Shown one piece after another: positions 6,784-23,376 of a DNA stretch of 64,000 nucleotides. The notes under the pieces are model-generated. The model was not told the DNA's origin. It did no database searches and saw nothing but the letters and a program-made list of their open reading frames with translations. This DNA is from Halobacteriales archaeon YIM A00010 (lineage in GTDB: Archaea; Halobacteriota; Halobacteria; Halobacteriales; Haloarculaceae), in NCBI GenBank assembly GCA_025041175.1, contig JAKCFJ010000006.1, positions 62,001-126,000 of the forward strand. Reading direction: 5' to 3'. The position numbers were made by a program, and so were the translations under genes. Position 1 is the first letter of the stretch, and each line of letters begins with the position of its first letter.

Positions 6784-6820
6784 AGTATGCCGTTCTTGTC
6801 TTCTATGTAAAAACGAGTCT

Positions 6821-6844
6821 ACATCAAAGTTCCCTTGACGTCCG
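6821..6844 (+). repeat. Promoter-proximal repeat, copy 1
   Basis: A 24-base stretch whose core is ACATCAAAGTTCCCTTG. It recurs at 9985-10008 in the same orientation with one mismatch, 61 bp before brxA. Here it lies 11 bp upstream of the pglZ remnant, so both copies stand before the first gene of a brx-type transcription unit. It may be a promoter or operator of BREX. Confidence 0.6.
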
Positions 6845-6854
6845 TTGACCTGCT

Positions 6855-7026
6855 CTGAAATCACAAGAATTTCAAAGACTAATTCCCCGACGAACACACA
6901 GAGGCGGTTCAGTTTGTCTGGTGGGATGATGGGGGGCATTTCCGTAAAATCGTCTCTGCTACAGCAGATCAAATAGGCGTCAGGTTCTCTGAAGCAGAAC
7001 GGCCCCCACTTGAGCTACGAAAAATA
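6855..7026 (+). pseudogene. 5' remnant of a second, divergent pglZ
   Basis: Reading plus from 6883 gives FPDEHTEAVQFVWWDDGGHF and, further on, ADQIGVRFSEAERPPLELR. These line up without gaps with residues about 20-66 of the intact PglZ at 18827 (FPDEHATAVRVVWWDEGGHL and ADQIGVGFSAAERFPLELR). Upstream, CTG AAA TCA CAA at 6855 resembles the first codons of pglZ (ATG AAA TCG CAA). About 30 bp are missing after it, and TAA at 6880-6882 stands where the intact gene has GAA. Similarity ends near 7026. The many silent differences from the intact copy show that it came from a related but different BREX locus. Confidence 0.85.
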
Positions 7027-7044
7027 CAGTCATCCTCTTACTCG

Positions 7045-9336
7045 TTATCCGTTCATCACTTTTCCAAGTCGGTTGATGTCCTCCAACAAGTCGGTTTCAA
7101 GTTGCTCAATGTCGGGCTGTTCATCCATTAGGGAATCGCATACGAGAGTGTCGAGTTTCCTCCTAGGACTGTCCTCATCATCAAGAGCTTCTTCCAGTTG
7201 GTGACGGAATAGGTCCCATTCAACACCCGCTACCTCATCGTAGGCGTCAATCATCCCGTCAACCTGCTCTCGCGTAAGCTTCGATGGGTCAAGAACCGTG
7301 ACACGGCGCAACTGCCGAGTCTTGTACTTCCCACGTGCACCTCGAACCTCCGCTCGATAGCCGAATAGGGGAACGAATCCGAGTGAGGAGTTCAACCAGG
7401 CAGCAACTACCTTACCGGCCTCTCGCGGAGTGACGGATTCCCCATCTGTGGTTTCGAGTTCAGGAATATCCACAGGGAACCAGACCGAGCCTGTTGCGGG
7501 CTGTTCTGGCGCAGTTGCGGTGATCCTCATCGAGTGGTAGAAGTCCCCACCTTCAGTAACCAGCAAGCTCCCAGTCTTGTAGTTGAACGGTTCTGTTACC
7601 TTCAGATTCGTATCTTCGTAAACCCACTGTACATCATCCTCCTCGAGTTTCATCTTGTTGATGGTACTGGTGTTGACGGTCCAATCTGCCTCTCCATCAG
7701 GCTCGTCATCCACAACTTGATAGCCAGCAGGCTTGATATTTTTCAGGAACAGGTGAACATCAGCAAAGTCATCAAGCTTCGAGGTTACGTTGTCCAGATT
7801 TACTCCGTAGGGCGCTTCTTGCGAAGAGAGAATCCCTTCAAGCGAGAGCATCAGACGAACAAGGTCTGGTTCTCGATAGGCGGCGTAGCGATACCAGTTA
7901 TCGGTGTGGTTGTTCAGGAAGGCGGCAGGGAAGGACTTGGATGCCCCTAACTTTGTCATACCACTGAACAAATTTAGGGCGTTGGGCTCCCGAATCGAGA
8001 TGTTAGACTTCTCCGTTCGGTTCAACTTCTGCGCTATCTCCCTCGCCTGAGCAAAGTCAATATCCTTGTCAACGTGCGTAACGACGGTTCCCCTACCGTT
8101 CGACTCTCCGTCTCCCAGTTTGCGGGCCACTATCTGAATTTCCCGAAGGGCCGTATCTTCCGACCAAGCCGGTAAACCCGGTCCCCACGAGACCAGCATA
8201 TGCTCAACGTGATAGTTCTCTGCCAGCATTTCACGGACTGCATCCCACGAATAGCGATTTACGATGGCTGTGGGGAGGACAAGTGCGAGACGTCCGCCCT
8301 CTTTGAGATGTTGATGACCAAGTAGAACGAAAGGTGCGGCTAACCCAGTCTGCCCAGTCATATCCTCGTTGTGAGCGCGGGCGTACTCATTGACCTTTGA
8401 CATATTGAGGATCTCAGTCGCTCGGTCTTTACGAGTGAAGGGAGGGTTCATAATGACAACATCATAGTCTTTGTCAACCCGAATTTCTTCCCTTTCAGCA
8501 GACACTTCCATCGACTGCTTGCCCGGTCCAATCGAATCCCCCTCCATTCGTTGTTGGACTTGGAGGGAGTTGGAGTGGGGATTCAGTAGGTCGAGTGAAC
8601 CGAGTCGAGGTGATGTGTTCGCTGGATCTGAGACAGGGACGTGGTACACTCCACTACTTCGGAACTGTCCCCGTGGCCTCTGCATTGCCAGATTCACGAT
8701 GGTTAGGTGAGCGGCGTAACTCATCGCGTCAAGGCCAGTCAAGTCCTCCTCAATGAACCGGCGGTGAATATCATCTAGTGAGTCTATATCGTTATCCTCC
8801 TCGATGGCGTCCGGCAAAGCGAGTGACAATTTTCTCCCGTATGAGCTGTTCGGGAGAGTCCCCGACCCACAGGCGAAGTCAGCCACCTTGTCGTCCCACT
8901 TCTCTACTGCCAGCCACGCAAGAAGATCGGACGACGGGATGCGCGTGTAGTAAGTTGCGAAGTTCTTGGCGAGCGTTTTTCCGAGAGCCGAGTGATAGAT
9001 GCGGCCCGAAAGGTCCTGTTGTAGCAGGCCCGACCGGGAGACAACATACTGAGCGGCGTCGTATATTTCTTCGAGAGCTGTTTCGGAGTCCTGTCCTGTG
9101 GGGAGGATATCCAGTACGTTAATGGCGTGGAGGAAGATATTTTCATAATTGATCTGATATGCTTCCTCGAATGCGGTGGTCATCGCCTCCCGCCAAGACC
9201 CTTCAGACCGCTTCAGCCGCCTGAGGCTATCAAGGTCTTCCGACTGACGAAGCACACCGTAGAAACTGGTCGCGTCGAACAGAATCAGACCGCCGCTGGT
9301 CAAATTCTCTCGAACGCTATCGTCATTATTCGACAC
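7045..9336 (-). CDS. N6-adenine DNA methyltransferase of nested restriction-modification unit
   Basis: DNA methyltransferase of about 763 residues. SAM motif I ADFACGSGT lies at about residues 152-160 and catalytic motif IV NPPF at about 297-300. The N-terminal helical region and the long C-terminal part with a probable recognition domain resemble type I HsdM or type IIG enzymes. GTG at 9336 is chosen as start; it overlaps the stop of the nuclease-like gene at 9326-9889 by 11 bp. An ATG further upstream would lie deep inside that gene. It is only distantly similar to the neighbouring PglX. Both genes of the pair run opposite to brxA and separate it from pglX, so they look like an inserted module. 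A role as an accessory BREX modification subunit cannot be excluded. Confidence 0.8.
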   Translation of the reverse strand: MSNNDDSVRENLTSGGLILFDATSFYGVLRQSEDLDSLRRLKRSEGSWREAMTTAFEEAYQINYENIFLHAINVLDILPTGQDSETALEEIYDAAQYVVSRSGLLQQDLSGRIYHSALGKTLAKNFATYYTRIPSSDLLAWLAVEKWDDKVADFACGSGTLPNSSYGRKLSLALPDAIEEDNDIDSLDDIHRRFIEEDLTGLDAMSYAAHLTIVNLAMQRPRGQFRSSGVYHVPVSDPANTSPRLGSLDLLNPHSNSLQVQQRMEGDSIGPGKQSMEVSAEREEIRVDKDYDVVIMNPPFTRKDRATEILNMSKVNEYARAHNEDMTGQTGLAAPFVLLGHQHLKEGGRLALVLPTAIVNRYSWDAVREMLAENYHVEHMLVSWGPGLPAWSEDTALREIQIVARKLGDGESNGRGTVVTHVDKDIDFAQAREIAQKLNRTEKSNISIREPNALNLFSGMTKLGASKSFPAAFLNNHTDNWYRYAAYREPDLVRLMLSLEGILSSQEAPYGVNLDNVTSKLDDFADVHLFLKNIKPAGYQVVDDEPDGEADWTVNTSTINKMKLEEDDVQWVYEDTNLKVTEPFNYKTGSLLVTEGGDFYHSMRITATAPEQPATGSVWFPVDIPELETTDGESVTPREAGKVVAAWLNSSLGFVPLFGYRAEVRGARGKYKTRQLRRVTVLDPSKLTREQVDGMIDAYDEVAGVEWDLFRHQLEEALDDEDSPRRKLDTLVCDSLMDEQPDIEQLETDLLEDINRLGKVMNG

Positions 9337-9889
9337 CCTCAAGCACCTCCTCAATATCAGCCGCAATAGAGTCGGCGTTCGGATGCCGAGCAAGGTGGGA
9401 GACGAACTGCTCAATGGAGTCGCTCACTCGCTCCACCGCTTCATCGAGTTCCTCCTCATCAAGCGCCTCACCTGCGTATCGGCTAATCAACTCTGGAAGT
9501 TCACTAATCCCCGTGCCCTCTATTCTAACGATCTCCTTGTCAGAGGACATCGACTGAATGAGCACTTCCAAGCTGGCATCCTTGAGTGCCTGTTTCACTT
9601 CAAGAGTAGAGGGCGCAACGAGTCCTCCTTCTGTGACTTCCGATGGGAAGATGACACCGAAGGTAATCTCACAAACTCCCTCATCAAGCCGGTCCCCTAT
9701 TTGCTCAACGAGTTCTTGCCGATTTCCTTCCTTCTTCATTTCGATGATCACACGAACACCTCGTTCAACGAGATATATGTCTGGTATATCTCCTTTTATT
9801 TGGACAAGTGATGCGTTCGACACCCCATATTCTCCAAGAATTTCAGAGAGGGCAACATTAGCGGTCTCCTCTCTCACTTTCTGCGACAT
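9326..9889 (-). CDS. PD-(D/E)XK nuclease-like protein paired with methyltransferase
   Basis: 187-residue protein starting at ATG 9889. Residues 35-52 read IPDIYLVERGVRVIIEMK, so D37, E50 and K52 form the D-x12-E-x-K core of PD-(D/E)XK nucleases. The C-terminal half is an acidic helical region, probably for contact with its partner. The stop overlaps the start of the methyltransferase gene by 11 bp, so the two are translationally coupled. Such a pairing suggests the restriction and modification subunits of one system. The protein is short for a complete type II enzyme and could be a non-cutting regulatory subunit or a truncated nuclease. Fold assignment is by eye. Confidence 0.6.
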   Translation of the reverse strand: MSQKVREETANVALSEILGEYGVSNASLVQIKGDIPDIYLVERGVRVIIEMKKEGNRQELVEQIGDRLDEGVCEITFGVIFPSEVTEGGLVAPSTLEVKQALKDASLEVLIQSMSSDKEIVRIEGTGISELPELISRYAGEALDEEELDEAVERVSDSIEQFVSHLARHPNADSIAADIEEVLEGVE

Positions 9890-10068
9890 GATAAGAGAAA
9901 GGGTCGGTTAGACATATAAAGGTCGTTATGACGTTTTTCAGCCATAATATCCGCCAATCTTATCTCCTACCTCAAAATGGACCAACATCAAAGTTCCCTT
10001 GCCGTCCGCTCATTCGCCTCGAAATCGTCACAAAAACTTCTAAGTAGATACCACGGTCTCGTCATAGT
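9890..10068. promoter_or_regulatory. Divergent promoter region between the nuclease/methyltransferase pair and brxA
   Basis: 179 bp between two diverging transcription units. It holds the second copy of the 24-base repeat at 9985-10008 (CATCAAAGTTCCCTTGCCG). AT-rich stretches near 9895-9950 and 10031-10048 could serve as TATA elements for the two directions. No Shine-Dalgarno sequence stands right before ATG 10069, consistent with leaderless transcription in haloarchaea. Confidence 0.45.
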
Positions 10069-10908
10069 ATGGCTACAGGTCGAAACGGGGATTTGGATTC
10101 ATGGGTCCCATCTCTCGTCGGGACACTCCCCGAATCGAAAATCACGATGGCTTTAACTCGGTGTGGTCTCCAGACCGACCGAACGCACGAGATCTCCTCT
10201 CTCTACGCGGACGAACTCGACTGGACCTCGGTGAAAGAAATCTGGTACGAGGACCGCGTTGCGAATCGGAGTAGTCGAAACAGTTCGAAGTCTCTGCTCA
10301 TTGCTATTCGAGCACGTCTTCAGTCAGCTAGTGAAGGACTTCCTTCGGTTCTGCTGCTCCCAGCAATCCTGGACCAATGTCGAAATGAACGCGATCAGGC
10401 ACAGGTCCTCTTCCTCTATCTCGTCAACCACGACGGGCTGGCTCGCTATGTCGTCCACGAGTACCTCCACCGACTGATGAAACAAGGACCCTCCGCACTC
10501 GACTTCGAGACGGATACTGTTCTTAGCATTCTCGACGAGTTCCGCGACAAGGCTGGCGAACCGCTAGAGTACTCGGAATCCACACAGAAACGGTGGGTAC
10601 AGGGGCTCAGATCTGCCCTCAGGGATATCGGTGTACTCGAAGGAAAGACTGAGACCATGGGTAAACCACCAAAGGTCGGCGACGTGCCCCTCCAGGTCGC
10701 GGCCTACTACTCCTGGGCCCTGAGCGGCGACGAGTGGCTCACGAAGCCGATTGGCTGGCTCTACCTGTTCCAGTCCGAAGAGTACTGGGAACCCCAGAGT
10801 AAGCGTCTGGCCGGATATGAGGGGTGGACACACCACGAAGCTCGGAGTCGTGTCTGGTTCGAACCCGTCGACGACTTCTACACGAATCTCTCGGAGGGGC
10901 CGGCGTGA
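10069..10908 (+). CDS. brxA: BrxA-like BREX protein
   Basis: 279-residue protein at the head of the plus-strand BREX operon. BrxA (DUF1819) is a small helical, DNA-binding protein conserved in BREX types 1, 3, 5 and 6. Seen here: the opening helical region (ESKITMALTRCGLQ), a central helical segment (VLFLYLVNHDGLARYVVHEY) and a C-terminal winged-helix-like stretch near SGDEWLTKPIGWLYLF. No signal peptide or membrane segment. Its stop overlaps a possible GTG start of brxC at 10905. The assignment rests on position and general pattern rather than a single diagnostic motif; the length is somewhat above that of bacterial BrxA. Confidence 0.75.
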   Translation: MATGRNGDLDSWVPSLVGTLPESKITMALTRCGLQTDRTHEISSLYADELDWTSVKEIWYEDRVANRSSRNSSKSLLIAIRARLQSASEGLPSVLLLPAILDQCRNERDQAQVLFLYLVNHDGLARYVVHEYLHRLMKQGPSALDFETDTVLSILDEFRDKAGEPLEYSESTQKRWVQGLRSALRDIGVLEGKTETMGKPPKVGDVPLQVAAYYSWALSGDEWLTKPIGWLYLFQSEEYWEPQSKRLAGYEGWTHHEARSRVWFEPVDDFYTNLSEGPA

Positions 10909-10913
10909 CTTCC

Positions 10914-13900
10914 ATGAAGGACCTGTTCGAGAAACACGACGCGACCTTCGAGGAGTCGATTCGCATCGACCGGAAGTTCGAGGAGGACGAAGACAGAGCC
11001 GCTCATCGCGACCAGCTCTACCGCCACTACCTCGACACCTACCACATCACAAAGGCTTCAGAAAACTATCTCAAGGACTTCTTCGCTCGAATCCACGGCC
11101 ACGACGAGGAGATGCGCAAGGGAGCCAATCACTGGCTCTACGGGTACTACGGGAGCGGGAAGAGTCACCTGCTGACGGTCCTCAACCTCCTCACCGCGTC
11201 TGCAGATCTCGAAGAGGAAGACAGAGAGGAGGTCTGGAATCGGCTGGATTCGGATGGTTCCTACACCGAGCTCTTCGATACCTGGTCCTCGATGCTCGAC
11301 GAGTACCGTCTCGTCCCTCTCCCGATCAACCTCCTGAAGTACCAAAGCGTCCGGGAGCAGAGCTTCAGTGAAATCATCCTCCAAGCAGTCTATCAAGCAC
11401 GAGGCCTCTCGAACCGACTTGACGTCGCATTCTTCGAGGAGTGGTACCAGAATCAGGGAACGTGGGACCAACGTGATGACCTCACGAAAGAGATCCTCCA
11501 AGACGAAGACGTTCCAAACGCGCAACAGTACTCGTGGGACGACGTCCAGCAGTACCGAATCCTCTCCGACCTCGTCCTGGAGGAACTCGTCGAACGAGAG
11601 ACGGGCACCGCAGATGGGTTGACAGACATCCAACGGCAGGATATCGGGCAGCGGATGGCTGTCGAAGCCGTTGAGGCGTATCGACAAGACCTCGAAGCGG
11701 CGTCGGAGAAACCAGTCAAGATCGTCCTCCTCGTGGACGAGGTGACGCTGTTCATTGGTGGAAACTACCAGCGTCTCTCGGAACTCAACGCACTCGCGGA
11801 AAGTATCGATACGATTGGCGATGGAGACATCCAGATGGTCGCGACGGCGCAGTCCGAAATCGAGGACGTCCGACCGGGACTTGCCGCGAAGCAACTCGAC
11901 TTCGGGATTCTCAAGGACCGATTCCCACACCAGTACCACCTGCCAAGTCATCACGTCGGAGAAATCGTCCAGCGTCGCCTCCTCGAGAAGACCGAAGAGG
12001 GAGCAGACTGGGTTGAGTCAGAAGCACTGACGGCGCGGGTACATCCGACCTCCACGTTCGTCTACTCAGAGGTTGGACAAAACACAGAGCCACCTCTCAA
12101 TCGAGTAGACGAAGACAAGTTCGTAAAGTTCTATCCGCTCCTACCTTATCAGCCGGCGCTCTTCCTAGAGATTCTCTCGAATCTTCGGAACGAGTTGGCC
12201 GACTCGACGAAGTCGATCTTCTCAGGAACAGCGAGAGCAATTCTCGCCATCGTCGCCGGACTCCGGGACCGCTGGATGCGCGACGAGAAGAAAGACGAGC
12301 TGTCCCTCATCAGTCTCGTCGACTTCTATGACCTGATTCAATACGAACTCGAGGACATCATCCCCAACGAGATCGAAGTTCTAGAAGAGATTGAAGACGA
12401 CGAGAACACGACTGATTTCGATCTCAAGGTCGCAAAAGCAGTCTTACTCCTATCGTACGTGCCCGATTCAGTCCCACAGAACGACGCCAACATCGCGGTT
12501 GCAGTGATGGACGACCTTAACGGCCAGCCGCGGACGACTGTCCGAAACCAGGTCCAGAATTCACTGGAGAACCTCGACAAGTACATCAGGCCAAACACGG
12601 CCGAGGACGGGCCTCTACTCCGAATCACGGATCGAGAGGAACGAGAGATCATCGAAGAGGCACGCAAAAATCGCGAGAACCCAGATTGGGACGAGATTAT
12701 CGCTGCTCTCGACAACGAACTTTGGGCAGACATCCGTCCTCGCCTGAACCTGCCAACGTCGGTTCCCTACGGCGGAGACGGTGACAACTACCCCATCTCG
12801 TATAGCTTCTCCATCGATGGGCAACCACTAGATGGGGATGACGAGCACGAGAGTGCGCTCGAAGCATCCATCGTTATCCGGGGCGTGCGACCTGATGTCG
12901 ACTCTAAGAAAGTCAACGAGGGAACGATCTACTGGTCGGTCAAGGAGGATGGATTGGATGATCTCCGAAGCCAGCTCATCGAGTGGTGGTCGTTCCACAA
13001 AGCGACGGCCGAGACGGAGACACCCGATACGATAGCCCGAGACGTCGACGATGCAGCGGACAGGGTGAAAAGTAAGCTCGCGAGCGCACTCAAAGATGGC
13101 TCGTACAAGGTTGAATCTCAGGAACCCCGTGGTCTCGAGTCTGCGGTCAAAGAGTGCATCAACCGTGCCTATCCCTCGTTCTTCCACCCCGTCATGCTCG
13201 AGGTGGACCAGAGCTACCTCTCGGAGCTAAAACGACTCGACGACGACGAGGAGTACCCGGAGTGGGCACAGAAAATCGATGTCCCAACACCAGATGCGGA
13301 GGTGTCCACGATGGGGACGATTGCGAAAGAGATTCGAGGCGCCGTCGGTCGAACGCTGGTCGACCATGACAACGAGATGGGTCTGCCAGCGCTCTTCGAG
13401 AAGATCACCGAGGAGACGCCGTTCTACGGGGAGGTCAAACCGGCAGTAACGGCGGTCCTCTGGGGGCTGTGTCGCGCGGGAGAGTTCCGTCCCGTTGCAG
13501 AGGACGGAGAGGCTCTCGCCGCGGATGAACTGCTGACGCTCTCTCAACAGATGGAGATCAAGCTGCGTACGGCACCGTCGTCGACGTCGCTCAAGGAACA
13601 GTTCATCGATGCTGGAATCATCGACCCGATTCAGACGGTCGACGAGGGAATTGTTGCTCTCGAAGAACTGAACGAGTCGATGAAGAGACGAGCACGAACG
13701 CTTGCAGAGACGACAGAAGTCAGTACAGAGACTGAACTGGAGAACGATGCGCTCGTCTCTCTGGTAGCGGCGTTCAGTAATACTCTCTCCGAAATGGCAG
13801 ATACTGCAGAATCTCGCGTCGAAGCAATCACTGCAGACGATACGGATTGGGAGAAAGTAATCGATCAGGTGGCGAGTGACGAAGAGTGGATATCTGCGGT

Positions 13901-14606
13901 GGAAGAGCGATGGGAATCCAGAGAACCCTACCTGTTACAACTCGACGGTCTGCTACGGTTCAGCGAACTGGAAATCGAATGGCTTGGCCAATCGTTCTAC
14001 GACGCACTGAACCAACTAACCCAACAACTCAACGCAGAATCTAGTCGGGAGTGGTGGACACAGGAAGGATGGCAGTCCTTTGATCAGTCACTGGACGCTC
14101 GGTTGACTGCTATCGCGGCACTTGAAGAGGATTGGTCAGCTCAGGTAGCGGAGACCGACGCGAAATCACTAGCGACGGACCTTGAGGAGCATCAATGGCT
14201 GATTCCGCCGTTACAGCTTCCAGAGCATAGCGTTCATGATGGATTTCAGTCCGGATATCTCCGCCCACTACGGCACTTCAGGGATACCAATGAGGATATC
14301 CAAGCCTGCGTTAGTGCGCTGACGAACCGAGAGCCCGGAACCCATGATGAGCGCGCGTTGAAACGAGCACTCGGGACAGTGTCCTCGACGACGGATTGGG
14401 ACAGCCTTACTGAAGACCGAGTTGACACATATCGAGAAAAGCACGAGACTGTAGAACAGCTAGTCGGTGGGACTCACCCCGACGAAATTGAAGGAGTAGG
14501 TGTGCTATTCGGCGATGAGTCTGCACTCAAGGGACAATTTGAGCGTATCGTGAAGTCGAGGAAGCCGACGATCGAGCAGGTCGATGGAGGTGTGGTTATC
14601 AAATGA
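10914..14606 (+). CDS. brxC: BrxC, large BREX P-loop ATPase (first copy)
   Basis: ATPase of about 1230 residues. Walker A YYGSGKSHLL lies near residues 78-87 and Walker B IVLLVDEVTLF near 270. A long, acidic, helix-rich C-terminal region follows. BrxC/PglY proteins of this size are core BREX components and probably form a multimeric complex with PglZ and PglX. The frame extends upstream inside brxA; the best starts are ATG 10914 or GTG 10905, the latter overlapping the brxA stop as GTGA. The gene overlaps brxB by 4 bp at its 3' end. The second brxC at 15222 is distantly related, and the presence of two copies is the hallmark of type 5. Confidence 0.9.
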   Translation: MKDLFEKHDATFEESIRIDRKFEEDEDRAAHRDQLYRHYLDTYHITKASENYLKDFFARIHGHDEEMRKGANHWLYGYYGSGKSHLLTVLNLLTASADLEEEDREEVWNRLDSDGSYTELFDTWSSMLDEYRLVPLPINLLKYQSVREQSFSEIILQAVYQARGLSNRLDVAFFEEWYQNQGTWDQRDDLTKEILQDEDVPNAQQYSWDDVQQYRILSDLVLEELVERETGTADGLTDIQRQDIGQRMAVEAVEAYRQDLEAASEKPVKIVLLVDEVTLFIGGNYQRLSELNALAESIDTIGDGDIQMVATAQSEIEDVRPGLAAKQLDFGILKDRFPHQYHLPSHHVGEIVQRRLLEKTEEGADWVESEALTARVHPTSTFVYSEVGQNTEPPLNRVDEDKFVKFYPLLPYQPALFLEILSNLRNELADSTKSIFSGTARAILAIVAGLRDRWMRDEKKDELSLISLVDFYDLIQYELEDIIPNEIEVLEEIEDDENTTDFDLKVAKAVLLLSYVPDSVPQNDANIAVAVMDDLNGQPRTTVRNQVQNSLENLDKYIRPNTAEDGPLLRITDREEREIIEEARKNRENPDWDEIIAALDNELWADIRPRLNLPTSVPYGGDGDNYPISYSFSIDGQPLDGDDEHESALEASIVIRGVRPDVDSKKVNEGTIYWSVKEDGLDDLRSQLIEWWSFHKATAETETPDTIARDVDDAADRVKSKLASALKDGSYKVESQEPRGLESAVKECINRAYPSFFHPVMLEVDQSYLSELKRLDDDEEYPEWAQKIDVPTPDAEVSTMGTIAKEIRGAVGRTLVDHDNEMGLPALFEKITEETPFYGEVKPAVTAVLWGLCRAGEFRPVAEDGEALAADELLTLSQQMEIKLRTAPSSTSLKEQFIDAGIIDPIQTVDEGIVALEELNESMKRRARTLAETTEVSTETELENDALVSLVAAFSNTLSEMADTAESRVEAITADDTDWEKVIDQVASDEEWISAVEERWESREPYLLQLDGLLRFSELEIEWLGQSFYDALNQLTQQLNAESSREWWTQEGWQSFDQSLDARLTAIAALEEDWSAQVAETDAKSLATDLEEHQWLIPPLQLPEHSVHDGFQSGYLRPLRHFRDTNEDIQACVSALTNREPGTHDERALKRALGTVSSTTDWDSLTEDRVDTYREKHETVEQLVGGTHPDEIEGVGVLFGDESALKGQFERIVKSRKPTIEQVDGGVVIK

Positions 14607-15229
14607 CGTCGACGCGAAACCCGCTCAAGAGATTCACCAAAGAGTTGGTCGACTTCGCAAGTGGCGAACGACGGGGAATTCGAAATCCCTTCGTCATGGT
14701 TCCGGTCGAACCATCTGTTGAACATCGCGTGACCGAACGGTTGATTCGATGGGCGGATCCCGAGACACCAGATACACTGACAAACTGGGTTGACGTCGAG
14801 GATCAGGCTGGCAACGAACTCAAAGTCGAGTGTGTTCGGCTAGACCATCTGATGCCTGAAACGCACGTTTTCGAGACCACCCTCGACCTCGGGCCGCTTG
14901 AGCGAACCACCACCAAAGCAGTGACGGAGACGCTCGAAACGAGTCTAGCTGACGAACTCATCGGGAAACTCGTCGATGAACAACTCAAAGGCGAGAATGC
15001 GCAGCAACATATCCTCCTGCTGCTGAACCTCGGAAGCCTCTATCCGTTCACCCGCGCCTCAGAGTTGCTCGATGAGATGGATCGCCGAAACGTGAACTCC
15101 ACAATCGGAATCCCGTTCCCTGGTCGGATCAGAGGAGGGAAATTGAGCTTCTTCAACGAGGACGCTCGCCACTACTACCCAGCCCACCGAATTGACGAGA
15201 AGATCACTGAGGTGTATCTCGATGATTGA
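14603..15229 (+). CDS. brxB: BrxB-like BREX protein
   Basis: 208-residue protein between the two brxC genes, overlapping the first by ATGA and the second by 8 bp. BrxB (DUF1788) is a small soluble protein of BREX types 1, 5 and 6 whose exact role is unknown. The sequence shows the family pattern: an N-terminal region with PFVMVPVEPSVEH, a central LDHLMPETHVFETT, and a C-terminal strand-loop pattern HILLLLNLGSLYPFTRASELL followed by IPFPGRIRGGKLSFFNED. The part LLNLGSLYPFTRAS...IPFPG is like the NTPase-like fold predicted for BrxB. No membrane segment. Confidence 0.85.
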   Translation: MTSTRNPLKRFTKELVDFASGERRGIRNPFVMVPVEPSVEHRVTERLIRWADPETPDTLTNWVDVEDQAGNELKVECVRLDHLMPETHVFETTLDLGPLERTTTKAVTETLETSLADELIGKLVDEQLKGENAQQHILLLLNLGSLYPFTRASELLDEMDRRNVNSTIGIPFPGRIRGGKLSFFNEDARHYYPAHRIDEKITEVYLDD

Positions 15230-18200
15230 TACGACACTTGAATCACTGTTTGCTCGCTCGCCGACGCGAGAACTCGAAGAAGTACAGAAAGTCAACGAAG
15301 TCGGCCAAGCCGAACGCGACATCGACGAGTTCTACGAGACTGATAGCGCTCGAAAGGTACTCACAGAACTTGGAGAGATTGTCGACAGCACAGGATCACA
15401 GCCTCGGTTCCGGTACGTCCATGCCACCTTCGGGTCTGGGAAAACACACCTCCTGAAACTAATCGGAATCGCGACTGGCGAGATTGAGGGACTCGAAACC
15501 GTCGCCCCAAAGCTTTCGAGTCAATTCTCCGGGTTCAAGGAATTCAGAGACCGACTCAATTCGTCCCACATTGACCACCTTGTTCCTCTGTTCATGAACC
15601 TCCTCGACCGGGACAAGGTTCGTGACTCGACGCTCTCACTCCTGATCTACGAGGAGCTGGGGAATCAACTCAACTACCCGACTGACCCGCTCTGGTTACT
15701 TGAGTGGGTGTGGGCCTTAGAAATCGAGCACGGGCTCTGGGAGGCCGTACGCTCAGTAGATCACAACGGAATGTCGCTGCAGGAAGCTGCACAAGACAAG
15801 GCCGCGCTTCGTCCCTGGCTCTATGAAGCTCTTCCCGAGATGGACGAGACTGATGGCACGCCCTACGCAACGGAAGAAGGCGTCAAGGAATCGATCGAGC
15901 AAGCCTCAGGCCAAATCAGTACTGAAGCGTTCACGCCCGATGAACTCGTAGAACGACTGGACCGAACAAAGCGCTACTTGCAGGAATCGGGCGAGACGTA
16001 CGAGTTCCTCATTGGACTCGACGAAGTCGCCATCTACGTCGGTGACCAGCAACACCGCTATCGGGAGTTTATCGAGACTGTAGAGACACTTATTGATGGA
16101 GTTAATCCACCGATAGTCGCGACTGGTCAATGGTCAATACGAGATAACCAGCAGGATTTCGTCGGTGAAGTCGACGATGAGGCGTGGTACACGAACGAGG
16201 TAATGTTGAGTGGTGCCGATACCGAGATCATCGTCAGAAAGCGATGGCTCCGAAAGTCAGATTCCGGCACGGAAACGGTACACGGCTTGTTTGAGCGAGC
16301 TCCTGATTTCGAACCAGAGCTTGCCGACGCTTCCGAATACACCGACGTCGGAGATCCTCTGGAGGCGTACCCCTTCCGTGAACATGACCTCTGGTTGCTC
16401 CGTGAGGTCATGCAGAGCCTCAAGAAAGAAGACTTGGAAGTGGACAGGGAGTATGTACAGGGACGCGCACTGCTGATTCTCGTCCGTTCTCTCTTCACGA
16501 GCTTCGATTGGGCCCAGAAAGAACCGGGAGCGATCGTTGCGTGGGATGAAATCTATGACCTAATTGAGCGCGAAACGATGGACATTCCGGGATGGGCTAA
16601 GGACCAGATCCAGAAAATCGAGAACACGACTGACGAGATGGGAGTGAGCGTCGCGAAGGTCCTCTATCTCCTTGGCCAAGTCGACGCCGTCCCGACAACG
16701 AAGGAAAACATCACGCGGCTTCTGGTTGGTTCAGTAGATACTGACATCGATCAACTCGAAAGCGATGTCGAGAAAGCCCTCGAAGCGCTGATGGAGGACA
16801 ACTTCGTTCGAACCGACGAGAGTGTCCAACCGCAGACATATAGAATCCTGTCGAAGGAGATTGTCGAATTCTGGGATCAGGTCCACCGAGAGGCAGCAGG
16901 GCTTCCCAAACACCAAGTTCGCTACAATATCGAGGATCTTCTTCGAGAGGCTGACCGTGGTCGGTTGACTGCCGATGATTCGCTCCGCACGCGGAACATC
17001 GATGGGATCTCCGACGCGCCGTACACGTTCCGCTACACCGTATTAGATCAGGTCGATGCATCACCGGAACCCCGTTTCGATGGTGTGGTTGCCAGAGTAC
17101 TCGCAGCAGACTCGGATACAATAGAAGAATCGCGAACGACATGGCAGGAAGCAAACGCTGGTGAGCAAGGAGTTGAAGATGTCCTTGTCGTTATTGAGCT
17201 TTCGGAGGGGCTTCGCGAAAGTATTCGGCATCTGATTGCGTTGGATACGTTATTGGAACCGGGTGCAAGCGCAGATCTCCGGATCGAGCAACAACAAGAG
17301 GAGGAGACTGTCGAAGATGAGATCGAAGAACTCCTCTATGCAGCGAAGCTCTATACGCCAGACCATACCACGACGCGAGGGACCTATCTAAGCAACATCG
17401 ATAGTGTGCTCGCTGATGCTGTCAGGGATAAGTTCAATAACAGGAAGACGCTCGATACGCGGCTGCAGGAGGTCGACGACGCTCGCACCCTCTTCGAGTT
17501 CTTCAATGGGAATGGTACGTGGCCGTTCTCAGCCGACGACGCAGAAACGCTCGGAGTCAAAACAGTTCCGAGAGAAATCAGTGATGGGTGGGTTGAAGAG
17601 TTCCTCAACGATTACGCTGGAGAGGAATTGGTGAGCGGAGAGACTGTCCTCGAAGAAATCGCGGGTCGGCGTGGGAAATATCTCGGCACGCCACGCGAAG
17701 CACTCGCCGCGCTTCTGATCACGCTCGCCGCGGCAAACAAAATCGAGATCAGACGCGATGGTGTCCGTATCGAGGACCCGGGCGAAATCGGGCGTGGAAT
17801 GCGGCGGCTTTCCGATATCCGGGACATCGATATTGGATTCGATCCCGTGGACATTGAGGGCAGTAGCAATCTAAAGGCGGTCTATCAGTCTCTCCGAGGA
17901 TTCGCACCGCAAGGGAACGATCCAACCGCTTGGCTCTCCAATCTCGCATCCTGGGCAGAGGAGAATAGTTCGGATATTCGGAATACCTGTGCTCGTGTAG
18001 ATCTCGAATTCGACGAGGAAATCACGCTGGATGCGCTTCGTGACGCGTTAGAATCAGGGATGGCAGGTGGCGAACTTGACGATGCAGTATTAACTGAATC
18101 ACCAGTACCAACGCAGGCAGAGTGGTTCCACAAAGCAGAACCATTATTCGAGGGAGATGAGCCGCTCTGGGACGAGTTCGACAGTACACTCGAGACGATG

Positions 18201-18830
18201 CGGGCACTGTACCCTGATGCTGCGATTACCTACAAGATGGAGGATGCCGTTGATGGGTCACGCATCCCTTCCAAGGAAAGCCTCACTAAACTCCAGACAG
18301 AGGCTCATGACTTCCGCGCCTCACAGATTAGTGAACTCCATCATCTTCTCACGGGAACCACACCTGAAGCGGATTCGATCTCGGACTTCTGTTCAGCGGT
18401 CGAGCAAGTGTTTCTGGATCACGATGTAATCGTGGATATTGATACCGCCACCGAGACGATTTCAGGAGTGACTTTCGAGTCGCTCAGAGAACTCGATGAG
18501 ATTGCGGCATCCGCGGAAGACATCTCCGAATCAGATATCGCATCAGGAAACGCAGTCAGTCAGCGAAGCAGCTCACGAGAATCTCGGTACGTCATTACGA
18601 AGCAGGTGAAACGTGCGCTAAGCGGGCCAGACCTCGTCACATCGTCTCGAGCAGATGCGTTGGTAAAACAGGCCGATGCAAAGCTCCAGTCAAAAGACGA
18701 TGACGAGGACGACGAAGACGATGAAGACCAAGAGGGCGATGGACAATCAGTCGACGAGCTCTGGGCAGAGGTAACAGAACCAGGTGACGGAACTATCGTG
18801 GTTATCGATACAGAGGAGGGAGACCGATGA
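15222..18830 (+). CDS. brxC: BrxC2, second large BREX P-loop ATPase
   Basis: 1202-residue ATPase starting at ATG 15222, overlapping the brxB stop. Walker A ATFGSGKTHLLKL lies at about residues 68-80 and Walker B LIGLDEVAIYVG near 265-276. An extended helical region follows, ending in an acidic low-complexity stretch (DDDEDDEDDEDQEGDG) close to the C-terminus. It shares with the first BrxC only the overall plan and the P-loop. Type 5 BREX systems encode two such ATPases, which may form a mixed complex. Its stop overlaps the pglZ start as ATGA, so expression is coupled. Confidence 0.9.
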   Translation: MIDTTLESLFARSPTRELEEVQKVNEVGQAERDIDEFYETDSARKVLTELGEIVDSTGSQPRFRYVHATFGSGKTHLLKLIGIATGEIEGLETVAPKLSSQFSGFKEFRDRLNSSHIDHLVPLFMNLLDRDKVRDSTLSLLIYEELGNQLNYPTDPLWLLEWVWALEIEHGLWEAVRSVDHNGMSLQEAAQDKAALRPWLYEALPEMDETDGTPYATEEGVKESIEQASGQISTEAFTPDELVERLDRTKRYLQESGETYEFLIGLDEVAIYVGDQQHRYREFIETVETLIDGVNPPIVATGQWSIRDNQQDFVGEVDDEAWYTNEVMLSGADTEIIVRKRWLRKSDSGTETVHGLFERAPDFEPELADASEYTDVGDPLEAYPFREHDLWLLREVMQSLKKEDLEVDREYVQGRALLILVRSLFTSFDWAQKEPGAIVAWDEIYDLIERETMDIPGWAKDQIQKIENTTDEMGVSVAKVLYLLGQVDAVPTTKENITRLLVGSVDTDIDQLESDVEKALEALMEDNFVRTDESVQPQTYRILSKEIVEFWDQVHREAAGLPKHQVRYNIEDLLREADRGRLTADDSLRTRNIDGISDAPYTFRYTVLDQVDASPEPRFDGVVARVLAADSDTIEESRTTWQEANAGEQGVEDVLVVIELSEGLRESIRHLIALDTLLEPGASADLRIEQQQEEETVEDEIEELLYAAKLYTPDHTTTRGTYLSNIDSVLADAVRDKFNNRKTLDTRLQEVDDARTLFEFFNGNGTWPFSADDAETLGVKTVPREISDGWVEEFLNDYAGEELVSGETVLEEIAGRRGKYLGTPREALAALLITLAAANKIEIRRDGVRIEDPGEIGRGMRRLSDIRDIDIGFDPVDIEGSSNLKAVYQSLRGFAPQGNDPTAWLSNLASWAEENSSDIRNTCARVDLEFDEEITLDALRDALESGMAGGELDDAVLTESPVPTQAEWFHKAEPLFEGDEPLWDEFDSTLETMRALYPDAAITYKMEDAVDGSRIPSKESLTKLQTEAHDFRASQISELHHLLTGTTPEADSISDFCSAVEQVFLDHDVIVDIDTATETISGVTFESLRELDEIAASAEDISESDIASGNAVSQRSSSRESRYVITKQVKRALSGPDLVTSSRADALVKQADAKLQSKDDDEDDEDDEDQEGDGQSVDELWAEVTEPGDGTIVVIDTEEGDR

Positions 18831-20980
18831 AATCGCAACCGACTACGACACTCGAAAACCAAGCGGAAGCCCATCTCGAGGATGAATTCCCTGATGAACA
18901 CGCAACGGCTGTTCGGGTCGTCTGGTGGGACGAGGGGGGGCACCTCCGGGAGGTTGTCCGTGCTGCAGCTGACCAGATTGGAGTAGGATTCTCGGCGGCA
19001 GAACGGTTCCCTCTCGAACTGAGGAGAATCGCAGCGAAAGAACCGGAATCCCCCCACGTCTGGTACATCCCGGAAGCGAAAACAGTCGAAGATTCAGAGG
19101 AGGGGCTGATTGAGCGGGACTGGTTCAGAGACATCCGTGAAACTGGCGGTGAAATCGAACTCACAATCGAACAGCTGACTGCCGAGCTGTATAAGGTGAA
19201 TCCCTGGGACATCTACGATGTTGAACGAGGAACGGAGTCTGATCGCGAAACTGCAGCGAATGTAATCAAGAATCAGTTTGCAAGCGGTGGGATTCCACGC
19301 TACGGAGATCTAATCGGTGAGATCATCACCAAGGGAGAGGGCCAGATTTTAGAGCATCTCCTCGAGGGAGGATGGCCAGAAATTGACCGGGATGACGAGA
19401 CGATCGCCCGGGTACAAAAATCACTGAAAGACAGGCACGTCGCTCCTGCAGACAGTGCTGAGACACCGGAGGAGATCGAGGACGTCGTCTGGAAGTGGGC
19501 TGTTGCCCGTTGGCTCGTCGCCGAAGGAATAGATGTCGACGCATTCCCCGATGGCTATGGAAACGTGGGTAGCACTCTCGGCGACATTAACCCGCTAAAA
19601 CGAATTGTCGATACCCGACAGAGCACGCGGTTGGCAGAACGCTATCTGAGCGAGAGCTACTGGGAACGTGTAATCGAAGCGTACGGAGATGTTTGGGAGC
19701 TCGCGGCGTGTCCGGTTGACGGGGCACTTGACGCAGCACTGTGGGATGCGTGGCTGGAATCATTAGAAGAGGAGAAGTACACGAAATGTATCGAATGTGC
19801 GAACGAGCGCCAACGAGCCCTTGAGGTGTATCCGGACGATATTTCGTGGACGACGCTCTGGAAACAGGCCGAACAAGTGGCCAAGCTGGAATCACGGTTT
19901 GCAGCTTGGGAAGAACGTCCTAAATCGTTCGACCCCTTCAACCAGTATTCCGCTCAGGATGATGGGACCTGGAAGATCGACTACGGGGTACTGGAACTCG
20001 AGATAACTGGCGAACCCGAACAAGATAGACTGCTCAACTCCCACCCGGCGACGGGAACACTCCCCGAGCTTCGCTCCGAGCTCTTGGAGACGCGGTATAT
20101 GAACTATCTCGAGGAGATGAGTGAGGCAGTAATCAGTTCGTTCAGTACTGGATCTCCTTTGGCGGGGAAAGACGCTGCCTACGAGTGGTGGACTGACAAC
20201 GAGAATGATCTCGCAACAGGGGAGACAGTCGCCCTGTTCCTGATCGATGCGCTGCGGTTAGACCTCGCTCGGGAGCTGGCTAACCGTCTTCGAGAAGACT
20301 ATTCGATCACCGAAGATACCAGGGTTAGCACGCTTCCGTCAGAAACCAAGTTCGGAATGGCTGCACTCACGCCGGGGCGAGCTCATAGGTTCCGTATCAA
20401 ACTCCGGAACGGGAAGCTATCTGTCGAACGGGGTGGCCAACGCCTCGACAACAAAGGAAATCGAGTGAAAGTCCTCGAACGAGAGGGATGGGACGTGCCG
20501 GAAGACAGCGATTCGGGGTGGCAGCGTAACCAAATCGCCTACTACGACAAAGACATCGACGACATTGGAGAAAACGAGCTCGACAATCCAGAGAGCTACT
20601 TCACCGATTACATCGACGAACTTTACGATCTGATCACTGAGGAACTTGAGAACGGGAACAGGGATCGGATCTACGTCGTGACGGATCACGGGTTCGTCCT
20701 GTTACCGAAAGGGACTACGATGGAATCGATTTCCAGTTACGACGGCGATGGCGAAGTGAAATATCGGCGAATCGCTGGAGACGACATTGAAGACGCAGGG
20801 ACAGGCGTCCGAGTTACGGGTCAGACACCCGGGACAGAATATCTGAACACGTCAGTTCGATTGCTCGCCAAACCTCGGCAGTACAACAGCAAAAGCGGGC
20901 TAACCGACACCAGCTATTACCACGGTGGGATCCTTCCACAGGAATGTATGCTGAACTTCCTCCGGATTGAGAAGGAATAG
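18827..20980 (+). CDS. pglZ: PglZ, alkaline-phosphatase-superfamily BREX protein
   Basis: 717-residue protein with the PglZ domain (PF08665), whose core is related to alkaline phosphatases and phosphodiesterases. The first metal-site region is LFLIDALRLDLARELANRL at about residues 471-489 and the second is RIYVVTDHGFVLLP at about 616-629; D, DxR and TDHG are the expected metal-binding positions. The N-terminal region (VVWWDEGGHL) is family-specific and is what identifies the remnant at 6855. PglZ is present in every BREX type and is essential for defence in studied systems. It is the last gene of the coupled operon. Confidence 0.93.
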   Translation: MKSQPTTTLENQAEAHLEDEFPDEHATAVRVVWWDEGGHLREVVRAAADQIGVGFSAAERFPLELRRIAAKEPESPHVWYIPEAKTVEDSEEGLIERDWFRDIRETGGEIELTIEQLTAELYKVNPWDIYDVERGTESDRETAANVIKNQFASGGIPRYGDLIGEIITKGEGQILEHLLEGGWPEIDRDDETIARVQKSLKDRHVAPADSAETPEEIEDVVWKWAVARWLVAEGIDVDAFPDGYGNVGSTLGDINPLKRIVDTRQSTRLAERYLSESYWERVIEAYGDVWELAACPVDGALDAALWDAWLESLEEEKYTKCIECANERQRALEVYPDDISWTTLWKQAEQVAKLESRFAAWEERPKSFDPFNQYSAQDDGTWKIDYGVLELEITGEPEQDRLLNSHPATGTLPELRSELLETRYMNYLEEMSEAVISSFSTGSPLAGKDAAYEWWTDNENDLATGETVALFLIDALRLDLARELANRLREDYSITEDTRVSTLPSETKFGMAALTPGRAHRFRIKLRNGKLSVERGGQRLDNKGNRVKVLEREGWDVPEDSDSGWQRNQIAYYDKDIDDIGENELDNPESYFTDYIDELYDLITEELENGNRDRIYVVTDHGFVLLPKGTTMESISSYDGDGEVKYRRIAGDDIEDAGTGVRVTGQTPGTEYLNTSVRLLAKPRQYNSKSGLTDTSYYHGGILPQECMLNFLRIEKE

Positions 20981-21060
20981 TAGCCAGAGCAATCCTGAGC
21001 AATTCACTACTGTGTTTACAACCTCAAGTCTTGTTGCAGCCTATGAAGAACCACTAACAA

Positions 21061-21612
21061 ATGACCGAATCTGAGGTGAAAGTCGTCAATATTGCAGCGT
21101 TGGGCACACTCGGGATCAAAGTCGATATCGAACAAATCGTTGAAGATGCCGGGCCCCCGGTGGCTAACTTCGATCCGGAATACAATGCTGCGTTCGTCCG
21201 GTTCGAGGAACATGGAGAGCTGATTATTCTCTACACCTCTGGGAAGTACATTCCCTGTGGAGGAGACGAATTCGAGAGGATGCACCAAGTGAATGCAGAG
21301 TTTCTTGATTTCATCGCAAATCTCGGGATAACTGTTGACGAACTCACTCTGGAGGTGAAAAACGTCGTCAGCGTCGGTAACCTCCATCACGAGATCGATC
21401 TCAATACATTGACGATCGGACTCGACTTGGAACAAACAGAATGCGAACCAGAGCAGTTCCTAGGCTTGGTTTACCGACCATCAGGCACCCGTTGTATCCT
21501 CCTTGTGTTTGTCAGCGGCAAAGTGGTAATCACAGGGAGACGAAGCGAGGAAGAGGACAATCAGGCGTTTAAATCGCTTCAATCGAAGTTAGAAGGCCTA
21601 GAACTCATTTGA
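21061..21612 (+). CDS. tbp: Divergent TATA-box-binding protein (TBP) paralogue
   Basis: 183-residue protein made of two repeats in the TBP saddle pattern. Repeat 1 runs from VKVVNIAALGTLGIKVDIE to about residue 93. Repeat 2 starts at VKNVVSVGNLHHEIDLNTL and has EQFLGLVYR and VFVSGKVVITGRRSEEE, the counterparts of EQFPGLVYR and F-SGK-V-TGAK in canonical TBP. Repeat 1 is eroded (PEYNAAFVRFEEHGELIILY, YTSGKYIPCGG). Haloarchaea often carry several TBPs and TFBs that direct alternative promoter sets. It starts 80 bp after pglZ on the same strand, so it may be read with the BREX operon and direct its own expression programme. Family is sure; the link to BREX is inference. Confidence 0.85.
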   Translation: MTESEVKVVNIAALGTLGIKVDIEQIVEDAGPPVANFDPEYNAAFVRFEEHGELIILYTSGKYIPCGGDEFERMHQVNAEFLDFIANLGITVDELTLEVKNVVSVGNLHHEIDLNTLTIGLDLEQTECEPEQFLGLVYRPSGTRCILLVFVSGKVVITGRRSEEEDNQAFKSLQSKLEGLELI

Positions 21613-21690: not shown

Positions 21691-22332
21691 ATGGTCGATG
21701 TCGAGTGGGCTTTGAGTCAGCTTGGGCAAGTCTTCCACTCTGAGGACCATCTCAAGTTGGCTCTCGGAGCTGAGCTCGCCCAGATGTATGGTAATGAACG
21801 AGTTCGACTAGAATGGAATCCAGAGCCGGGTGTCAGAGTCGACATCGGAGTACGACGGGGAGATGTCACAATTCCTGTCGAGATAAAATACAAAACGAAA
21901 CAAGCGACCGTCAAAGACGCCGTTTTTGAGGAGACCTTCCAGTTGAAAACACAGGATGCACACGATCGCGCCCACTACCGCTTTCTTCGCGATATCAACC
22001 GTGTAGAGCAGATTGTCTCCAACCAAGGTAGATACGGGTATGCGGTTCTTCTAACAAATGACTCGAACTATTGGACTTCACCGGCAGGTCAAGCCCTTTA
22101 TGACGAGTTTCGGATTCACGAAGGGCGCGAATTTGGTGAAGGGAAATTGAACTGGCGAGAGCAACGAGATTGGATGTCGAAGAGCGGTGAGGACGCCCCG
22201 ATCAACTTGGTAGGCCTGTACGTCGCTGAATGGACTCGCTATGAGTATCGTGAGGATATTAGTGTCTCGTCAAACTCAGAGTTTCAAAGTCTGGTACTCA
22301 GGGTGGATACACAGGTGGCAGTGGACGAGTGA
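21691..22332 (+). CDS. PD-(D/E)XK nuclease-like protein
   Basis: 213-residue protein. Residues 48-66 read VRVDIGVRRGDVTIPVEIK, so D51, E64 and K66 give a D-x12-E-x-K catalytic core. An N-terminal helix (LKLALGAELAQMY) precedes it, and a further strand (GRYGYAVLLTND) follows, as in restriction-endonuclease-like folds. No partner methyltransferase lies next to it; its neighbours are the TBP paralogue 78 bp upstream and an insertion sequence downstream. It may be a defence effector added to the BREX island, or an orphan restriction enzyme protected by BREX methylation. Confidence 0.65.
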   Translation: MVDVEWALSQLGQVFHSEDHLKLALGAELAQMYGNERVRLEWNPEPGVRVDIGVRRGDVTIPVEIKYKTKQATVKDAVFEETFQLKTQDAHDRAHYRFLRDINRVEQIVSNQGRYGYAVLLTNDSNYWTSPAGQALYDEFRIHEGREFGEGKLNWREQRDWMSKSGEDAPINLVGLYVAEWTRYEYREDISVSSNSEFQSLVLRVDTQVAVDE

Positions 22333-22616: not shown

Positions 22617-23376
22617 GGCACTGCTAGATTGAGGTTGAACTGAACGGAGTTCCTCGAGGGAAGTAGGATGCTGTTCGAAGATCTCCACGTCGAGGTAACG
22701 GGTTCTTCTGACGTACCGTTTTTGGACAGTGACCGAACACGCACGCCAGTCTGGCTGATCAGGCTGGCGTGCGCTGCTCATGCAGCGGCGGCCTCGTTGG
22801 CGGAGTGTCGCGATCTCTGCGAGTGGTTCGGCGTCAGCCGAACCCGAGCAACCATTCAGCACTGGTATCAGTCCTACGCAGGTTATTACGAGCAGGACTT
22901 CACCGTCGAGCCCGAACGCATCGCGGTTGATGAGAAACAAGTCCAGCTCGAGGAGGAACAGACGGCGTGGTTGTACGCAGCGATCGATGTCGACTCGAAA
23001 GTCGTGCGTGGAGCACGACTTTCGAGACATCGTGGCCGAGACCCCGCTGAGACCTTCTTAGAGGAACTCAAAGAGAAACACCGCGTCGCAGACGCGGAGT
23101 TTCTCGTCGATGGGATGGGTTATCTTACCGCCCTCGCTCGGACAGACCTCACGGGACATCTCGACTACTCCGACCGCAACATCGTTGAAAAGCTGTTTCA
23201 GACGTATACCATGCGTATCGAGCGATTTCACGAGACCTGGAACGCCAATCAAGCCGGCGCTGAGCGCTGGCTGACTGCCTACACCGCCTATTACAACCAC
23301 CACAGAAGTCACCAAGTCCTGGAGAATCAGTCCCCAATTGAGACACTCAAACGTGACGGTTCAATCTAGCAGTGCC
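22617..23376 (+). mobile_element. IS6-family insertion sequence
   Basis: 760-bp element bounded by perfect 16-bp terminal inverted repeats, GGCACTGCTAGATTGA at 22617-22632 and its complement at 23361-23376. It contains a single transposase gene. The flanking 8 bases (GGACAAGA and CTTATACA) do not match, so no target duplication is visible; flanks were probably rearranged after insertion. The same ends bound the MITE at 27487-27701. Confidence 0.93.
22668..23369 (+). CDS. IS6-family DDE transposase
   Basis: 233-residue transposase with an N-terminal helix-turn-helix (CRDLCEWFGVSRTRATIQHW) and a DDE/RNase-H catalytic domain: first Asp in WLYAAIDVDSK, second in FLVDGMGYL, and the Glu region near ERFHETW towards the C-terminus. 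The length matches IS6-family transposases of haloarchaea, which move by replicative transposition through cointegrates. The stop lies inside the right inverted repeat. The frame is intact, so the enzyme could also act on the related MITE. Confidence 0.9.
   Translation: MLFEDLHVEVTGSSDVPFLDSDRTRTPVWLIRLACAAHAAAASLAECRDLCEWFGVSRTRATIQHWYQSYAGYYEQDFTVEPERIAVDEKQVQLEEEQTAWLYAAIDVDSKVVRGARLSRHRGRDPAETFLEELKEKHRVADAEFLVDGMGYLTALARTDLTGHLDYSDRNIVEKLFQTYTMRIERFHETWNANQAGAERWLTAYTAYYNHHRSHQVLENQSPIETLKRDGSI

Follow-up and report, generated by a model that had tools for sequence, protein, structure and literature searches.

A TbpC-like TATA-binding protein in haloarchaeal BREX-5 loci belongs to a family linked to DNA-methyltransferase defence modules

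Results

The window, a 64,000-nucleotide stretch of a contig of Halobacteriales archaeon YIM A00010, contains a complete BREX-5 gene set as annotated by PADLOC, consisting of brxA, brxB, two brxC/pglY genes, pglX, pglZ and brxHII; the related loci described below are likewise annotated as BREX-5. On the forward strand, brxA (10069-10908; Pfam and PADLOC) is followed by brxC/pglY (10824-14606), brxB (14603-15229), a second brxC/pglY (15192-18830) and pglZ (18827-20980; PglZ, 589 bits), each matched by PADLOC. The brxHII helicase gene (1-2526; BrxHII, 1472 bits), which extends beyond the window edge, and pglX (2542-6972 as the listed ORF, with a homology-based start near 6783; PglX, 2006 bits) lie on the reverse strand. 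Between pglX and brxA, an Eco57I/N6-type methyltransferase gene (789 aa) and an ORF of 187 aa occupy 7045-9889 of the reverse strand; in genome G380 a TBP stands in their place, giving the interval the look of a slot for accessory genes. A stop-containing remnant of a second pglZ copy (6871-7032, forward strand; residues 17-70 matched at 65% identity) lies in the gap between pglX and that methyltransferase gene, a trace of an older BREX system or of a rearrangement.

Downstream of pglZ, a forward-strand gene with an ATG start (21061-21612) encodes a divergent TBP of 183 aa. The 80-bp spacer that separates it from the end of pglZ at 20980 (20981-21060, forward strand) carries an A/T-rich box, GTGTTTACAACC, which is partly common to relatives and is a candidate promoter of the TBP gene itself. 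Pfam PF00352 (TBP) matched the protein twice (104.8 bits, E 2e-30), with 75 bits for repeat 2 and 32.7 bits for repeat 1, compared with ~104 bits per repeat for the chromosomal TBP, the only other TBP in the genome. An AlphaFold model (pLDDT 86.5) has Sulfolobus TBP (1mp9) as its best structural match, with a Z score of 19.6 and an rmsd of 2.0 over 175 residues, and also matches Pyrococcus TBP from the TBP/TFB/DNA complex 1ais (Z 17.6). The double Pfam match and the Z score of 19.6 show the saddle of two TBP repeats by which a TBP is recognised. A sequence-only reading of this DNA had placed a complete two-repeat TBP 80 bp behind pglZ, and the ORF, the Pfam matches and the structural model agree with it. 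The genome encodes many TFBs in addition to its two TBPs, and a 302-aa TFB paralogue lies 25 kb from the TBP gene on the same plasmid-like contig (46352-47260, reverse strand).

The four phenylalanines of canonical TBPs (F99, F116, F190 and F207, yeast numbering) are only half represented in the window protein: F99 is missing, F116 is replaced by Tyr, and F190 and F207 are present. Loss of the N-terminal Phe pair with retention of the C-terminal pair is the pattern of TbpC-like TBPs. The E-P-E-Q stirrup that contacts TFB (E186/P187/E188/Q189) is also present. Across 97 sequences, these stirrup residues and repeat-2 F190 and F207 are kept in at least 95%, with TFB-contact residues at ~97%. In repeat 1, Tyr replaces F99 in 68 of 90 sequences outside the BREX clade and F116 in 73 of 90, and N69, R105 and K120 are mostly retained in the family; the BREX clade itself lacks F99, has Tyr fixed at position 116 and mostly carries Arg in place of T124. 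Among BREX-linked copies, dN/dS is 0.06-0.20, the highest values falling on pairs that include the window copy, indicating that the family is under selection and not simply decaying. The sequence-only reading had called the first repeat eroded, which describes its score but not its history, as the change is family-wide and accompanied by purifying selection.

Established TBP-TATA structures orient the protein with its C-terminal repeat towards TFB and the upstream TATA half and its N-terminal repeat towards the downstream half. Since the stirrup and repeat 2 are kept and the repeat-1 Phe pair is lost, TFB recruitment should survive, with a change in how the downstream half is recognised or kinked.

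Directly 3' of the TBP gene lies a conserved partner ORF of 213 aa (21691-22332, forward strand), which is under purifying selection (dN/dS 0.04-0.09). Searches of Pfam, NCBIfam and PADLOC returned no match to it besides a marginal one to HEC-06, and its AlphaFold model (pLDDT 35) is too low in confidence for a fold assignment. A D51-x12-E64-x-K66 motif, with D51, E64 and K66 conserved in seven sequences, suggests at the motif level a putative PD-(D/E)XK nuclease. Two other BREX loci (L125 and L132) have the ORF without a TBP, placed between pglY and pglX; it is thus an accessory of BREX independently of the TBP. In relatives, the gene that follows it encodes a protein of ~1990 aa that has a sacsin-like ATP-binding domain; the window has a transposase-like integrase-core (rve) fragment at that place (22668-23369, forward strand).

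To find related loci, we used the window TBP protein to search 391 Halobacteria genomes and scanned the genome contigs. The closest relatives (52-88% identity), from several families of haloarchaea, occupy 11 loci that are all BREX-5 and fall into three layouts. In the first, pglZ is followed by the TBP gene and the 213-aa ORF (the window genome, Halorarius, Haloquadratum, Halobacterium and G217, whose copy is truncated). In the second, found in Natrinema pallidum, the TBP gene, the 213-aa ORF and a gene for a sacsin-like ATPase are divergent from the brxA of another BREX core. In the third, the TBP gene is divergent from pglX (G372, G093, G299, G319 and Halococcus dombrowskii). The Natrinema copies of the TBP and partner ORF are 75-80% identical, yet they adjoin a different BREX core (39% for BrxA). 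Besides the truncated copy of G217, that of G319 is disrupted and that of G299 apparently frameshifted. TBPs of other branches were found in three further BREX loci (G380, G050 and G336).

The linkage of TBP and BREX that had been proposed from the window is therefore borne out in several families, and the possibility that it is unique to this genome fails, with the closest relatives all in BREX-5 loci. The association is recurrent but optional: a TBP of this kind is present at 11 of 65 haloarchaeal pglZ loci, and 54 of the 65 pglZ copies are without one, counts that rest on ~65 full-length pglZ copies, with the surrounding DNA read for 48 and the remainder compared with the listed TBP coordinates.

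The next relatives (~36-46% identity) adjoin not BREX but other DNA-methyltransferase systems, either an Eco57I/type IIG methylase with a BrxHII/HmaA/DrmD-like SNF2 helicase or type I hsd genes. In 40 genomes selected for carrying divergent TBPs, from which both TBP classes were drawn, an N6_Mtase/Eco57I gene lies within 10 kb of 55 of 61 divergent TBPs, compared with 0 of 65 canonical-type TBPs, for which distances to methylase genes were taken from coordinates (Fisher p 2.5e-29; ~2% expected at random). Three of the six divergent TBPs outside this distance are BREX-linked. A survey of 101 family members found module markers within 8 kb of 83: 31 type IIG plus SNF2, 21 type I, 12 type IIG, 3 SNF2 alone and 16 BREX, of which L169, L170 and L175 rest on weaker BrxC/PglX matches and may be another system; the other 18 had none. 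The divergent, TbpC-like TBP family is near-exclusively linked to DNA-methyltransferase defence modules. The tie between TBP and BREX proposed from the window is thus real and recurrent, but it is not specific to BREX, being shared with such modules generally.

Seen from the methylase side, in genomes chosen for their TBP paralogues, a TBP lies within 10 kb of 19 of 39 strong Eco57I matches and 15 of 26 strong HsdM matches. The TBP is optional for the module, with about half of the related methylases and 11 of 65 pglZ loci carrying one, and its position within the module is variable, without a fixed place; in many cases the gene shares 4 nt with the helicase gene before it (gaps of -3) or is transcribed divergently from the methylase or hsd gene. 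A paired TFB adjoins the TBP at only 4 of 122 loci. In the family tree, context labels cluster by module type (35 changes, compared with 58.8 after shuffling; 0 of 200 shuffles as low), and the window TBP falls inside a clade of eight that are all BREX-linked (support 100/98). Outside Halobacteria, the family was not seen, matches there being at the level of canonical TBPs only.

Six type IIG plus SNF2 operons (L049, L073, L076, L078, L158 and L173) encode a pair of distinct TBPs: one gene separates methylase from helicase and the other follows the helicase. We rejected the idea that the SNF2-TBP pair is Mot1-like, as the helicase matches the BrxHII, HmaA and DrmD families of other defence systems.

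Many haloarchaeal plasmids carry family members; plasmid NC_012030 of Halorubrum lacusprofundi, for example, has an intact type IIG-SNF2-TBP module. On pNRC100 of strain NRC-1, VNG_RS12735 overlaps a helicase gene that itself lies behind a methylase gene split by ISH27-2 (L191, 493-9549). Its residues are Y99/Y116 and F190/F207; among the three full-length TBPs in the pNRC100 stretches that were read, it alone is without the N-terminal Phe pair, the others keeping all four Phe. From its position and these residues, we infer that VNG_RS12735 is tbpC. It is 83% identical to members of the type IIG plus SNF2 clade of the same family. Viruses also carry such genes: in halovirus HRTV-9, a family TBP lies 17 nt behind a type IIG restriction-modification (R-M) gene, and in HJTV-2 it adjoins genes for a winged-HTH protein, an N4-cytosine methylase, Trm112 and an Eco29kI-type nuclease. 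The two viruses hold their TBP and R-M genes at a similar spot of the genome, near ribonucleotide reductase. A search of viral contigs with P0001 returned no related loci. The TBP moves with the modules: the Natrinema pair stands beside a different BREX core, and both haloviruses carry the TBP with R-M genes.

The sequence-only reading had further proposed that brxA and the BREX genes are under this TBP as an orthogonal factor. A core-promoter-like element upstream of brxA, AACTTCTAAGTAG (10035-10047, forward strand), is conserved whether or not a relative has the TBP gene: it is present in the window, in G380, which has another TBP, and in G170, a genome without a family member, where the best TBP match is at canonical level only (E ~8e-19). 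TCTAAGTG is found at brxA in G356, G344, G214 and G127, and the best TBP matches in G170, G356 and G344 are all at canonical level (E ~1e-16 to 1e-19). Similarly, loci with the TBP (L042-L045) and without it (for example L138, L139, L142, L144 and L146) have the same promoter motif at pglX, CAACATTRAAG or CAATCTTCAAG. The same promoters with and without a TBP neighbour disfavour exclusive control of brxA or pglX, and, on this promoter comparison, exclusive control of brxA by the window TBP is unlikely. The proposal is not supported, given the shared brxA core promoter and the 54 pglZ copies that have no such TBP; a modulating role or other targets, such as the TBP gene itself or the partner ORF, may be compatible with the comparison.

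In aligned divergent intergenic regions, candidate TBP-specific boxes were conserved within close relatives only, with none shared across groups. No promoter is readable at type IIG genes, where the methylase start mostly lies immediately behind the end of another ORF. The brxA and pglX genes of BREX-5 have conserved, non-classical TATA-like boxes (TCTAAGTR; CAACATTRAAG, CAATCTTCAAG or TTGATGTA) that span very diverged loci with or without a TBP (L113, 4930; L139, 9429; L042, 10371).

Discussion

Our analysis suggests, at about even probability, that the window TBP, a BREX-linked member of the TbpC-like family, recruits TFB and regulates the mobile defence module that encodes it. We give even odds as well to the broader proposal that archaeal restriction and BREX modules bring their own general transcription factor, which would switch module genes through host TFB and RNA polymerase in the manner of a C protein. 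A TbpC-like protein would still recruit TFB, and hence RNA polymerase, while the TFB-distal half of the TATA element would be bound or kinked differently. This altered TATA binding could tune transcription of the module's own genes, with the protein acting as activator or repressor. Candidate targets are its own gene, a divergent methylase or hsd gene, and co-directional nuclease and ATPase genes behind the TBP. The likely purpose would be to time or autoregulate expression as the module arrives in a new host, a C-protein-like job.

With the same surfaces, the protein could instead be a competitor or silencer that occupies TFB or promoters without productive initiation, damping its own module or invading viral and plasmid genes. 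A kept TFB-contact surface combined with the loss of one DNA-kinking pair is what a dominant-negative factor would be expected to show, and the family is linked to defence modules; however, the consistent Tyr for Phe substitutions and mostly kept N69, R105 and K120 point to altered rather than abolished binding, and a purely antiviral role fits poorly with virus-borne copies that adjoin R-M genes. We regard silencing as unlikely, though it is the foremost of the alternatives.

Somewhat less probable again is a role outside transcription, in which the TBP fold would bend DNA or act as a sensor within the complex of the methylase, helicase or nuclease. RNase HIII makes use of TBP-like domains. 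The close association of the TBP with genes for SNF2 helicases and nuclease-like proteins would suit such a role, as would the TBPs known from TOTE/TALON systems (PMC12458937), but TFB-contact residues would then be free to drift and are instead conserved at ~97%, the TBP accompanies many unrelated enzyme types, and related systems persist at many loci without it.

That these genes are non-functional or decaying duplicates hitchhiking in defence islands, as was suggested for TbpC in 2014, seems improbable to us. An NRC-1 tbpC knockout had no visible phenotype (PMC2121645), TbpC was reported as untranscribed and possibly non-functional (PMC4230888), and three BREX-linked copies are broken, or apparently so. 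Against decay stand the low dN/dS values, the consistent Tyr substitutions beside a near-invariant TFB stirrup, and the methylase linkage, shared by none of the 65 canonical-type TBPs; the knockout may have been silent because the methylase gene adjoining NRC-1 tbpC is split by ISH27-2. Most improbable is an orthogonal TBP that drives the BREX operon from brxA: its favouring evidence is that the gene is divergent from brxA in one locus (Natrinema) and from pglX in five, but the same brxA core promoter recurs in three genomes whose TBP matches are at canonical level.

Why haloarchaea have several TBPs is an old question, and the TbpC-like proteins, one large class of them, had been left without a function and suspected dead. 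Their near-exclusive link to methylase-based defence gives the class a concrete candidate role and means that a general factor can belong to a mobile cassette; regulation of the module by its TBP, if true, would amount to a restriction controller based on a general factor, and to a function for the whole TbpC family down to its virus copies.

The literature that we searched, in which few subscription journals were covered, held no paper joining TBP and BREX in haloarchaea and none linking TbpC-like proteins to methylase-based defence. Within it, the TbpC-like family is already known and the methylase-defence linkage is the new part. TbpC-like haloarchaeal TBPs were described as having lost the N-terminal intercalating Phe pair and kept the C-terminal one (PLoS Genet 2014, PMC4230888). 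The window family has the same Phe pattern, and its BREX relatives in Halorarius and Halococcus are named 'TATA-box-binding protein C' by NCBI. The 2014 paper considered loss of function for TbpC and does not contain the word 'restriction', whereas the present analysis adds defence-module linkage and purifying selection.

Halobacterium TbpD is a TBP paralogue proposed to serve, with the TFB TfbA, a subset of promoters (PMC2121645). The TbpC-like family differs from such alternative TBPs, as the other full-length pNRC100 TBPs keep four Phe and canonical-type TBPs are without methylase linkage. TOTE (TPR-OB-TBP-effector) and TALON conflict systems also encode a TBP (PMC12458937), likewise beside nucleases, but by description they have other hosts and gene content, and in haloarchaea the family's linkage is to DNA methylases instead. 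The core genes in the window are those of known BREX type 5, to which the TBP and its 213-aa partner are optional accessories. The closest parallel in proposed role is with the C (controller) proteins of bacterial R-M systems, which are likewise small DNA-binding regulators inside a mobile R-M module and are proposed to time its expression; the TBP family, too, is a regulator-type protein encoded within R-M modules. C proteins are HTH (Xre-type) factors and the window protein has the TBP fold, so that the likeness lies in the proposed role and not in membership.
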